Source: Maridesulfovibrio sp. (GTDB lineage: Bacteria; Desulfobacterota; Desulfovibrionia; Desulfovibrionales; Desulfovibrionaceae). Taken from it: a stretch of DNA of 64,000 nucleotides. Shown here in pieces: positions 37,439-42,642 of the stretch. The notes beneath the pieces are model-generated. The model was not told the DNA's origin, did not search any database, and saw only the letters and a list, made by a program, of their open reading frames with translations. Position 1 is the first letter of the stretch. Each line of letters opens with the position of its first letter. The stretch lies in contig NZ_OY781616.1 of NCBI RefSeq assembly GCF_963677005.1, positions 937,501 through 1,001,500 of the forward strand, read 5' to 3'. The translations under genes were made by a program, and so were the position numbers.

Positions 37439-39301
37439 TTATTTTTTTGAGGATTGAGTTTGTTTTTGGGCGGCGAGGAGAGATTGGACTTTTTCAATCA
37501 TGGGTTTTGCGCCGATTTCACGAAATAGAGAAAGTGATTTTTCCCAGCATTCCTCGGCTCCTGCAAAGTCCGATTGGGTTTTACGGAGGACACCGAGGTT
37601 GCCGTACTGGTAAGCCATCCCTTCTTTACTACCGAGCTCTTTATTCAACTCCAGTGACTTGTTGTAAAAATCCTCGGCTCCGGCAAGGTCCCCTTGAGTT
37701 TTACGAAGGACACCGAGGTTGCCGTAATCTGAAGCCATCCCTTCTTTGCAGCCGATCTTTTTATTCAACTTCAACGACTTGTGGTAAAAATCCTCTGCTC
37801 CTGCAAAGTCCCCCTGAGTTTTACGGATGATACCAAGGTTGCAGTAATTTGAAGCCATCCCTTCTTTGCGACCAAGCTTTTTATTCAACTCCAACGACTT
37901 GTTGTAAAAATCCTCTGCTCCTGCAAGGTCTCCCTGGTTACTACGAATATTTGCGAGGTTGCCGTACTGGAGAGCCATCCCTTCTTTGCGACCGAGTTCT
38001 TTATTCAACTCCAACGACTTGTTGTAAAAATCCTCTGCTCCTGCAAGGTCTCCCTGAATACGACGAATATTACCGAGGTTGCCGTACTGGTTAGCCATCC
38101 CTTCTTTATTGTCGAGCTCTTTATTCAACTCCAACGATTTGTTAAAAAAAATCTCTGCTCCTGCAAGGTTACCCTGAATTCCACGGATGATACCGAGGTT
38201 GCCGTAATCTGAAGCCATCCCTTCTTTGTGACTGAGCTCTTTTTCGATTGCCAAAGATTTGTTGTGAAAATTCTCTGCTCCTGCAAGGTCCCCCAGAATA
38301 TAACGAATATTCCCGAGGTTGCCGTACTGGTTAGCCATCCCTTCCTTGCGACCGAGTTCTTTATTCAACTCCAACGACTTGTTGTAAAAATCCTCTGCTC
38401 CGGCAAGGTCCCCCTGAATTTGACGGATGATACCGAGATTGCCGTAATTTGAAGCCATCCCTTTCTTGCGACAGAGCTCTTTATTCAACTCCAACGCTTT
38501 GTTGTAAAAATCCTCTGCTTCTGCAAGGTTCCCCTGAATATACCGAATATTCCCGAGGTTGCCGTAAGCAACAGCATAAAGTCCTTTGTTTTTACTGGAA
38601 ATGCCTATTTCCAGAACTTTTTTATATGCCTGCCCGGCTTTTTCAAGCTCCCCTATTCTTTGCAATAAATGCCCAAGTTGATTCCATCCGTCAGCATTTT
38701 TGGGGTCAAGTTCAACAGACTTTTGATAAGCTTCAAGTGCTTCATGAGTATTCTCTAAAAAAGCAAGAGCACCAAGGCGCCGATAAGCCTGCGCAGCTAT
38801 TACATTGGTTTTCTGAGATTTTTCTTCATTCTCTTGTGCAACCTGTTTAAATAATGCCTTTGCTAACTCGGTGTTACCTTTTTCAAGTTCTTTTTCTGCT
38901 CTTATTGCATCTTCTTCGATGTCATCCTGTTTTTCCAACTCACGTACACCATCAATGGCATCTTTTAACCTTGCTATCTCCTGATCCTTTGACTGATTAT
39001 CCAATTTGGCTTTTGTAAGCTCTTCATTAACGTTTTCATATTTTTCAAGTAATCTTAATGCAATTTCACCAGAATCTGTCCTTTCTGCGGGAGATACTGT
39101 TACAGTCACAGGAGAAGGACCAGCTTGATCTGTTTTTCTACGCGGCAGAAAAAACTTAACAAACCAAATGGCAAAAGGAGTTCCTCCCAGAAAAACACTC
39201 CAAGCCCCTAATTTACAGCTTGTATCCAAGCCTGCGTATAAAGGCCACCACCCGGAAACAGTGGCGTCCACACTATAAATTATATCAGTGGCATTAATCA
39301 A
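37439..39301 (-). CDS. Membrane-anchored protein with nine near-identical TPRs
   Basis: 620-residue protein: one N-terminal membrane segment (near residues 30-50, FLGGTPFAIWFVKFFLP), a coiled-coil-rich linker (about 70-160), then kinesin-light-chain-type tetratricopeptide repeats. From about residue 245 there are nine 40-residue units with consensus YGNLGIIRKIQGDLAGAEDFYNKSLELNKELGRKEGMA. It starts with TTG, preceded by GGGAG at a good distance. The gene is AT-richer than its neighbours and could be accessory. The TPR face should bind protein partners; no functional partner or effector domain is visible. Confidence 0.8.
   Translation of the reverse strand: MINATDIIYSVDATVSGWWPLYAGLDTSCKLGAWSVFLGGTPFAIWFVKFFLPRRKTDQAGPSPVTVTVSPAERTDSGEIALRLLEKYENVNEELTKAKLDNQSKDQEIARLKDAIDGVRELEKQDDIEEDAIRAEKELEKGNTELAKALFKQVAQENEEKSQKTNVIAAQAYRRLGALAFLENTHEALEAYQKSVELDPKNADGWNQLGHLLQRIGELEKAGQAYKKVLEIGISSKNKGLYAVAYGNLGNIRYIQGNLAEAEDFYNKALELNKELCRKKGMASNYGNLGIIRQIQGDLAGAEDFYNKSLELNKELGRKEGMANQYGNLGNIRYILGDLAGAENFHNKSLAIEKELSHKEGMASDYGNLGIIRGIQGNLAGAEIFFNKSLELNKELDNKEGMANQYGNLGNIRRIQGDLAGAEDFYNKSLELNKELGRKEGMALQYGNLANIRSNQGDLAGAEDFYNKSLELNKKLGRKEGMASNYCNLGIIRKTQGDFAGAEDFYHKSLKLNKKIGCKEGMASDYGNLGVLRKTQGDLAGAEDFYNKSLELNKELGSKEGMAYQYGNLGVLRKTQSDFAGAEECWEKSLSLFREIGAKPMIEKVQSLLAAQKQTQSSKK
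37485..38565. repeat. Tandem 120-bp coding repeats, about nine copies
   Basis: The repeats are clear in DNA, not only in protein: for example the 60 bases at 37981 and at 38341 differ at one position. They correspond to 40-residue TPR units. Such identity suggests recent duplication or gene conversion and copy-number variation between strains. Confidence 0.9.
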
Positions 39302-39482: not shown

Positions 39483-39956
39483 CTACTGCGCGAACTCCTC
39501 AACAAAACGATTGATCTCCTGACGCGCTTTTTCCAGAAAATGGGGAAAAGCAGCCTTGCAGGTATCAGTCATTTCCATGGACCATTCGGTGTAGTTCTCC
39601 GGCTCCATACCCAGGATGCGGAGTTCCGGGCGTTTGCCGATGGCTCCGGCCATGTTCAGGGAATCCACCAGATCGATATCGTGCAGGGACAAGCGCTGCT
39701 TCTCGTTATTGATGATGTCCTTTTCTTCCAGATAATAGATGGTCCCGGCATTCTTCCCGCCATGAACAATGTCCAGAACCAGCGTTGCATCGTATTTTTC
39801 GAGAATATGAAAAATATCATGAGTGAATGTTCCGCCGTCCACAAGGTGAACGTATTCCGGCCATTCCTCCTTCTTGAGCTCCTCAACAGCATGAACCCCG
39901 ACGCCCTCATCGCCGAGCAGTATGTTTCCTATTCCCAGCACCAGTAATTTTTTCAT
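39483..39956 (-). CDS. hysD: Hydrogenase maturation endopeptidase
   Basis: HybD/HycI-type protease (157 residues) that trims the C-terminus of the hydrogenase large subunit after nickel insertion. It shows GIGNILLGDEGVGVHAVEEL at the N-terminus, with the Glu/Asp that test for nickel, and the conserved DGGTFTHDIF and DIVHGG segments with the second Asp and the His ligand. It lies 175 bp downstream of hysA, separated by a strong hairpin, and is expected to remove an 18-residue tail of HysA (inference). GGACGG precedes the ATG. Confidence 0.9.
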   Translation of the reverse strand: MKKLLVLGIGNILLGDEGVGVHAVEELKKEEWPEYVHLVDGGTFTHDIFHILEKYDATLVLDIVHGGKNAGTIYYLEEKDIINNEKQRLSLHDIDLVDSLNMAGAIGKRPELRILGMEPENYTEWSMEMTDTCKAAFPHFLEKARQEINRFVEEFAQ

Positions 39957-40018: not shown

Positions 40019-40056
40019 AAACTCCCGGACACGGGGTACCCTGCGTCCGGGAGTTT
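40019..40056 (-). terminator. Hairpin between hysA and hysD
   Basis: 12-bp arms AAACTCCCGGAC / GTCCGGGAGTTT with a second inner pairing in the loop; a T-rich stretch follows on the minus strand. It lies 75 bp past the true hysA stop, so hysD expression may rely on read-through or its own promoter. Confidence 0.75.
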
Positions 40057-40131: not shown

Positions 40132-41670
40132 TTAGCAGCCTTCTCCTACGTGTACAACGTGTTCCTCACCGGTCTCTGCGTGCAGCACGTGCACGGCACA
40201 GCCAAGTCACGGGTCGAAGGATCGTATGATCCTTGATATGTCAACCGGACTTTTCGGATCGGGAACGGGGCAGCCGATGAGGGCTTCCTCAATGGTGCCG
40301 CGCATGCCTGAATCGTCACGGGGTGTGCTGTTCCAGAGAGTTGCCGGAATCATCTGATAGTTGGCGGTTTTCTGGTCCTTGATGCTGATGTAATGCAGCA
40401 GGGAGCCGCGGGGAGCTTCGGTGAGACCGAGGCCTTCCGCAACCTGGGGAATGGCGGACTTGACGTAAGTCTCTTCCCCGGCCTTGACTTCATTGAGCCA
40501 GCGGTCCTGAATGGCATTGACAACGAGGTAGGCTTCCTCTGCACGGGCAACGTGACGGCCCATGAGGGAGAAGACCATTTCCGCACCGAGATCGCGGAAC
40601 ATCTTGGCTTCGACACCGAAAAGGTCCTTGAGCTGCTTGCGGCCCATGGGGCTGAGTTCAGGGTTCTGAACCCACATACGGGCGGCAGGGCCTACTTCAA
40701 CGGCATGACCGTTGTAGCGGGAAGCCTTGCAGAAGCTGTAGGCGCCTTCCTTGTGTACATCCGGAATGGTCTTGCCCTTGCTGGGGTGCAGGTCGGAACA
40801 TTCATCGGTGTACCATGCATACTTGGTGTATTCCTTGATGAGTTTCTGGTCGAAAGGCTCATCCTTGCCGTCAACGTAAACGCCGGGCTTGAGGAGGAAT
40901 TCGCTTTCGGCATCATCCATGGGGAATACGCCGTATGCCATTGCGTTTCTGTATCCGCCGCCGATTTTGAACAGATCCTTGTAAACGGAACCGATCAGGT
41001 AAACGGTGGGTACGTATGTTTCAGCGACGAATTTCTGCACCTGCTTGAAGCGGCTTGCGTATTCGACAAGCTTTTCCTTGGTGGGGATTTCGGTCGCTCC
41101 GCCGACAACCTGACCGGAGATGTGCGGCATCTTGCCGCCGAACAGTGCCACCATTTCATGGCAGATACGGCGGATTTCAAGAGCTTTTACATACTGGTCG
41201 ACTGCAACGGCGTTGGTTTTTTCATCCAGACGCAGGTCCGGGTGTTCAAAACGGGGAACAAATGGAGCTTTGCCCGGACCTCTGACGAAGTCCAGAGCTG
41301 CCAGATGATAAAAATGCAGAATATGGGACTGCAGATAGTTTGCGCCGAAGATGAGGTTCTTGGTCAGGCGACCGTTGGTGGTCAGCTTGACGCCGAAAGC
41401 ATCATCAAGGGCACGGGTGGATGCTGTAGAGTGAGCGGTGGGACAAACTCCGCAGAGTCTCTGAGTCAGCTGGGCGGCATCGCGGGGATCGCGGCCGATC
41501 AGAATGTTCTCGAAACCGCGGTACATGCCGCCGGACAGCCATGCGTCCACAACTTTGCCGTCCTTGACCACAACCTCGGCTTTGAGGTGTCCCTCGATGC
41601 GGGTTACCGGGTCAATGGCAATCTTGAGCTTCCCGTCTGCGGCGACGGGTTCATGAGAGTTCGAAGACAT
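40132..41670 (-). CDS. hysA: [NiFeSe] hydrogenase large subunit (selenoprotein)
   Basis: Catalytic subunit of the periplasmic [NiFeSe] hydrogenase. The conventional frame ends at TGA (40207-40209), but continuing in the same frame past it gives 24 more codons to a TAA at 40132-40134. Read as selenocysteine, the end becomes FDP-U-LGCAVH-VLHAETGEEHVVHVGEGC, the exact active-site motif DPUxxCxxH with Sec488 and Cys491; the N-terminal Cys73/Cys76 pair is in RLCGVCPTAH. Total length is 512 residues. The tail after His494 (18 residues) would be removed by HysD. Overlap with the known Desulfovibrio HysA sequence is strong. Confidence 0.95.
40165..40206 (-). promoter_or_regulatory. Candidate SECIS region after the UGA codon
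   Basis: Bacterial selenocysteine insertion needs an mRNA hairpin directly 3' of UGA. The roughly 40 bases here are GC-rich and can form partial pairings (for example GTGCTGC with GTTGTAC), but I could not settle a single fold, so only the position is proposed. Confidence 0.35.
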
Positions 41671-41694: not shown

Positions 41695-42642
41695 TTAACC
41701 GGCTTCGTAGAAGGGGGACATTTCATCCGGGAATCCCGGTTCTACACAGCCAAGACATACTGAGTTTTCGACACACCAGTTGACCCCGCCGTTCCATTTG
41801 CGTTTGAAACAGTCGGAGTTTGCGTTGGGGCCTTTGCAACCCAGTTCGTAGCGACACTTAACCGGATCGGTGAATATTTCAGCGTATTCGTCGTTATCGA
41901 ATTTTTCGAGGAACGGACAATTGTCGTGAATATTTTCACCGTAAAAGGGAGTGGGACGTCCGACGTTGTCCAGAATGGAAACAACATCAGCCAGTCCGCT
42001 CTGCAGACCTTTCTCTTCAATAGCGTTGATCGCGACGACAAGAGTTCCCACCATCCAGTCAGGATGGGGCGGGCAGCCGGGAATGTTGACCACGGGGGTC
42101 TTCACTCCGTTTTCAGCCAGGAAATTGGTCACGGACATGGAGCCTGTGAGGTTGCCCTGTGCGGCCGGAATACCGCCGTAGGCAGCGCATGTGCCCACGT
42201 TTACGACAACGGCGGCGTTTTTGGCCATTTCGAGTGTGGCATCGGTCATTGCGAATTCCTTGTGATTCGCATCAGCACCGACAATGCAGAAATGACCGTT
42301 TTCCGCAGTGGGAACCGAACCTTCAACGATAAGGATGTATTTACCCGTCTGCTCTTTTGCCACGTCCATCATGTGTCCCCAGGCTTCATGACCTTCGGAC
42401 CCCATAATGGTCGGGTGGTAATCAAGGGTAATAACATCCAGAAGAACCTCTGCGATCGAGGGGTGCACTGAATTGAGAATCGATACCGAGCATCCGGTGC
42501 AGCCCTGTCCCTGCAGCCAGAATACATGCGGTACGAATTTTTTCAGTGCGTGCACCACACTGGGGTTGAACATCTGGGAAATCCCAAATCCAGCCACAGT
42601 CCCTGTGCACAATTTCACAAAATCTCGCCTGGTCAAACTCAT
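41695..42642 (-). CDS. hysB: [NiFeSe] hydrogenase small subunit, Tat-exported
   Basis: Electron-transfer subunit of the periplasmic [NiFeSe] hydrogenase, 315 residues. It starts with a twin-arginine signal peptide (SLTRRDFVKLCTGTVAGFGIS) that exports the folded dimer. Cysteine motifs CTGC, GTCAAYGG, PGCPPHP and CVENSVCLGC supply the clusters; the medial position reads NWCVEN, where [NiFe] enzymes have Pro, predicting three [4Fe-4S] clusters, as in known NiFeSe enzymes. The open frame extends 12 codons, but AGGAGG precedes the ATG at 42642. hysA follows after 24 bp. Confidence 0.95.
   Translation of the reverse strand: MSLTRRDFVKLCTGTVAGFGISQMFNPSVVHALKKFVPHVFWLQGQGCTGCSVSILNSVHPSIAEVLLDVITLDYHPTIMGSEGHEAWGHMMDVAKEQTGKYILIVEGSVPTAENGHFCIVGADANHKEFAMTDATLEMAKNAAVVVNVGTCAAYGGIPAAQGNLTGSMSVTNFLAENGVKTPVVNIPGCPPHPDWMVGTLVVAINAIEEKGLQSGLADVVSILDNVGRPTPFYGENIHDNCPFLEKFDNDEYAEIFTDPVKCRYELGCKGPNANSDCFKRKWNGGVNWCVENSVCLGCVEPGFPDEMSPFYEAG

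Follow-up and report, generated by a model that had tools for sequence, protein, structure and literature searches.

In the window, that is, the whole stretch of 64,000 nucleotides of Maridesulfovibrio sp. DNA analyzed here, the in-frame UGA of hysA is very likely decoded as selenocysteine (Sec) by the predicted SelA, SelB, SelD and tRNA-Sec of the organism itself, directed by a predicted SECIS hairpin. The gene was confirmed as hysA, an ordinary member of the known [NiFeSe] hydrogenase large-subunit family, and the insertion of Sec at residue 488, as judged from sequence comparison, is likely.

The hysA reading frame and the [NiFeSe] hydrogenase locus

The hysA gene starts with an ATG at position 41670 of the minus strand and ends with a TAA at 40132-40134, and it carries an in-frame TGA within the C-terminal DPUxxCxxH motif. 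Translation with table 11 yields 487 amino acids ending in FDP, while read-through of the UGA yields 512 residues including Sec488, with the product ending in ...SFDP-U-LGCAVH-VLHAETGEEHVVHVGEGC. The original prediction had placed the TGA at 40207-40209, followed by 24 further codons and the TAA at 40132, and had described a DP-U-LGC-AVH motif in a coding sequence of 512 residues; all of its coordinates were exact on the sequence, which holds both the motif and the length as described. The features considered in this work are the following:

40132..41670, minus strand: hysA, large subunit of [NiFeSe] hydrogenase (sequence; NF045518 match)
40207..40209, minus strand: TGA within the frame, predicted to encode selenocysteine as residue 488 (sequence; congeneric conservation)
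40189..40206, minus strand: codons 489-494 (LGCAVH), including Cys491 (second metal ligand at the C-terminus) and His494 (residue at which cleavage is predicted)
40178..40197, minus strand: predicted bacterial SECIS hairpin with 7 pairs and loop CGUGC (folding; fits the SECIS model quoted below)
40135..40188, minus strand: C-terminal extension VLHAETGEEHVVHVGEGC, 18 residues, with predicted removal on maturation (sequence; ends of solved chains)
41695..42642, minus strand: hysB, small subunit with twin-arginine signal (550.2 bits with NF045520, cut-off 470; 23.4 bits with TIGR01409, cut-off 16.7)
39483..39956, minus strand: hysD, [NiFeSe] hydrogenase maturation protease (246.5 bits with NF045519, cut-off 190)

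The read-through product scored 883.4 bits (cut-off 780) with NF045518, the dedicated NCBIfam model of HysA (kind "exception"), and the match reached residue 499, beyond the Sec site. HysB was present in all 36 of the loci compared below (partial in one, L027), and HysD was found inside the examined flank in 27 of them. Between hysA and hysD, a strong hairpin followed by a T-run is located at 40021-40054 of the minus strand (-31.1 kcal/mol, z -5.84, reached by none of 200 shuffles); as a terminator, it may set the protease gene apart from hysBA. A simple pattern scan for promoters and terminators gave sites no more numerous than in shuffled sequences. Downstream of hysD, positions 37439-39301 of the minus strand encode a 620-amino acid protein with many near-identical tetratricopeptide repeats.

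The best solved-structure matches are named as the large subunit of periplasmic [NiFeSe] hydrogenase, selenocysteine-containing, and the site DP(U)LGCAVH is common to hysA and chains 5jsu_B, 5jsh_B and 3ze6_B. We take these three chains to be the periplasmic [NiFeSe] hydrogenase of D. vulgaris Hildenborough, and the solved [NiFeSe] matches in general to be the enzymes of D. vulgaris and D. baculatum. On this assumption as to species, the proposed alignment with their HysA was obtained with 5jsu_B over HysA residues 10-508. The likeness of the tail to known HysA tails, also claimed originally, held as far as residue 508, up to which the tail was matched residue by residue (5jsu, 5jsh), whereas its end (EEHVVHVGEGC) is unlike the KVAVIEV of the solved enzymes, from which hysA otherwise shows ordinary divergence; beyond VLHAE, the HysA tail is variable between genera. 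Furthermore, chains 3ze6_B, 1cc1_L and 2wpn_B have as their last residue the one aligned to His494, as expected for the removal of a C-terminal extension.

The ligands of the Ni-Fe center are presumably Cys73, Cys76, position 488 and Cys491; with these roles, as in the solved enzymes, Sec488 and Cys491 would hold the center together with the N-terminal pair Cys73 and Cys76. HysD would cut after His494 following metal insertion, freeing 18 residues; export of HysAB would rely on the Tat signal of HysB, and the enzyme would work outside the cytoplasm. Without read-through, the product would end after 487 residues and be devoid of two of the four metal ligands.

Decoding of the UGA

The 24-codon open stretch that follows the TGA is not significant by itself, with a chance probability of about 0.3 by (61/64)^24. 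It is homology that places this frame above chance, since the tail aligned to solved [NiFeSe] large subunits and evolves as protein: among 15 congeneric tails (105 pairs, which are related and not independent), pS was 0.33 and pN was 0.12 downstream of the UGA, indicating that the frame is kept as protein. A pure stop followed by a meaningless frame was thus ruled out by tail homology and protein constraint. One alternative holds that the UGA mostly terminates translation, the 487-residue form being the main product and Sec being inserted only when selenium is plentiful. Competition between recoding and RF2 is reported in PMC4513850, with 30-40% recoding in vivo in a selenium-dependent manner. 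Nevertheless, the constraint on the downstream tail and the location at this site of two of the four presumed metal ligands argue against termination as the main outcome, which we regard as very improbable; partial termination, for its part, is compatible with decoding as Sec.

The TGA was conserved in relatives. Within the genus, a full-length HysA match was found in 15 of 17 genomes, including that of the window, with exactly one TGA in each; as for the other two, the match was cut by a contig end in G103, and G104 had no HysA-type match. Of 99 family genomes sampled, 24, our own included, had a full-length HysA-type match (at least 53% identity), 22 with one TGA and two with two, and four more genomes (G003, G026, G062, G081) had HysA fragments only. 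The motif was read in 30 loci, with TGA at the site in 26, Cys in none and the motif unreached in four; ten of 11 further congeneric loci had TGA at the site, the eleventh being cut. Thus, all 36 loci reaching the motif, from this and other genera, carry TGA at the Sec site. A few of these loci are perhaps the same genome taken from two collections, and the 36 comprise 26 distinct 45-nt rows. L026, L082, L083, L084 and L104, where the motif was unreached, were left out before counting, as were Sec-type matches to which no locus was assigned (e.g., G073:C72). Among 32 loci from a scan of genome contigs, L027 and L056 were Sec-type, L026 ended before the motif and most others were Cys-type; a tblastn search of plasmids returned 139 records, all below 60% identity, and hence no HysA among them.

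A second alternative attributes the TGA to a sequencing error, or to a mutation that disabled a gene formerly of the Cys type. The motif does occur with Cys in P0108, a database relative with 59% identity; however, the same TGA stands in the 36 loci of this and other genera, followed by a constrained tail, and on account of this conservation in other genomes both error and pseudogene were rejected, the chance of either being negligible. The genome also encodes a Cys-type [NiFe] hydrogenase (L021), which shares PF00374 with HysA and is 39% identical over query residues 147-505, but has a Cys codon where hysA has TGA, in the motif YDPCIACGVH.

The original prediction had made its reading depend on the presence of sel genes, and the genome, a single contig of 4,258,610 bases, was found to carry selA, selB, selD and a tRNA-Sec. 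Each of selA (609.3 bits against 267.9), selB (385.3 against 242.25) and selD (335.7 against 125) gave a single match above its curated cut-off, and the tRNA-Sec scored 83.3 bits against 47 and was called tRNA-SeC (anticodon TCA) by ARAGORN. A second match over the tRNA-Sec cut-off, at 47.7 bits, was discarded, being a tRNA-Ser by ARAGORN. This full Sec pathway, including tRNA-Sec, and the naming of the closest solved chains as selenocysteine-containing leave reading of the UGA as a different amino acid by a suppressor tRNA exceedingly improbable.

Besides hysA, three genes scoring over their family cut-offs carry an in-frame TGA, namely selD and two fdhA genes with one TGA each. In selD (L010, positions 2289173-2290096 of the genome), the TGA is at a UAAK site, which fits UxxK, the motif given for selenoprotein SelD in PMC13188914; the Sec pathway is therefore likely to need Sec for its own making. 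A third, low-scoring fdhA-like match (L090, positions 2508064-2508783 of the genome) contains one TGA and is split over several frames.

The predicted SECIS hairpin

The bacterial SECIS model given in PMC13188914 has an apical loop of 3-9 nt whose first two positions contain a G, an upper stem of 4-16 bp, a distance of 16-37 nt from the UGA and a minimum free energy of at most -7.5 kcal/mol. The hysA hairpin begins 9 nt after the UGA, and it fits this model with its loop CGUGC at 17 nt and an energy of -16.0 kcal/mol over a 37-nt stretch. Folding of the bases after the UGA, as originally proposed, thus yielded a SECIS-like structure, though one not more stable than dinucleotide shuffles: for the 66-nt stretch around the UGA, z was 0.35 and 121 of 200 shuffles folded as well. 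When 13 codons were redrawn synonymously 5000 times, the energy was reached by 154 redraws, the stem by 199 and both by 20, a modest effect. Scans of the window gave no Rfam family at the gathering score and no tRNA.

The best hairpin had the same loop in 24 of the 26 loci scanned (L069 had another, and L081 had none under the energy limit), and the ten later loci were examined for the 7 pairs only; these pairs are possible in all 36 loci. In the window's best fold, the outer pair is shifted by one base, G30 being joined to C13 rather than to C14 as in the helix counted here; either pairing can form in 21 of 21 rows. Downstream of the UGA, codons 4, 6 and 7 (Ala, His, Val) are invariant among the 36 loci, and third-base variation was observed at codons 1, 2, 3 and 10. 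Val codon 5 is altered in three loci (GTC in L069, GTT in L071 and L072), and in these same loci its pairing partner, the first base of His codon 9, is altered as well (GAC, AAC and AAC, respectively), restoring the pair; the compensatory changes concern one pair in two genera. In alignment A1, made of 21 distinct rows out of 26 and to which the ten later congeneric loci do not belong, two double-change cells were found, both at that pair; the covariation score was reached by one of 500 shuffles, but a control slid by -3 scored higher (0.068 vs 0.053). Only one of the seven pairs varies, and 81 of 500 shuffles had at least as many pairs with changes on both sides. Covariation support for the helix, as read from these alignments, appears to be real but thin, and a SECIS downstream of the hysA UGA is likely.

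It is conceivable, and we propose it tentatively, that VLHA at the start of the cleaved tail persists mainly on account of the SECIS, whose 3' arm is formed by the VLHA codons, in which case RNA structure would dictate the peptide; where Asn or Asp has taken the place of the tail His, the pair would be restored by the wobble base of codon Val493. P0108, with Cys at the Sec site and the tail VLHAES kept, speaks somewhat against the SECIS as the sole reason for keeping the tail, unless its Cys arose recently.

In L080 and L081 (genomes G053 and G012), a second TGA occurs four codons past the CAVH motif, after VLHA and directly behind the predicted 3' arm of the SECIS. In these loci, one UGA would be read as Sec and the next one, eleven codons later, as a stop.

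Known relatives and truncation in protein databases

The truncation at UGA, the read-through and the SECIS are textbook features of the [NiFeSe] family and are already in print for near relatives. In PMC4730141 (2016), several [NiFeSe] homologues are described as annotated in truncated form at an in-frame opal codon, with read-through yielding homologous sequence up to the second stop and SECIS elements following; hysA is therefore not new in kind. The [NiFeSe] set given there includes D. salexigens and D. hydrothermalis, to whose HysA the present gene adds another genome of the same kind. The nearest named database relative among the matches listed is the M. hydrothermalis record P0004, with 86% identity, which falls inside the within-genus range of 79-92%, and a length of 487 amino acids; this identity points to Maridesulfovibrio as the probable origin of the window.

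The original prediction also claimed that standard ORF calling loses the active site, and the protein database bears this out: among the best 120 of 6581 matches, 119 end at the Asp-Pro just before the Sec site, P0108 being the sole exception. Callers that take UGA as a stop lose 25 residues of HysA, including Sec488 and Cys491, which the gene model corrected in this work restores. The read-through of hysA opens no new mechanism; the extent of truncation among its best database relatives is useful in practice, both to annotation and to searches that require the full metal site.
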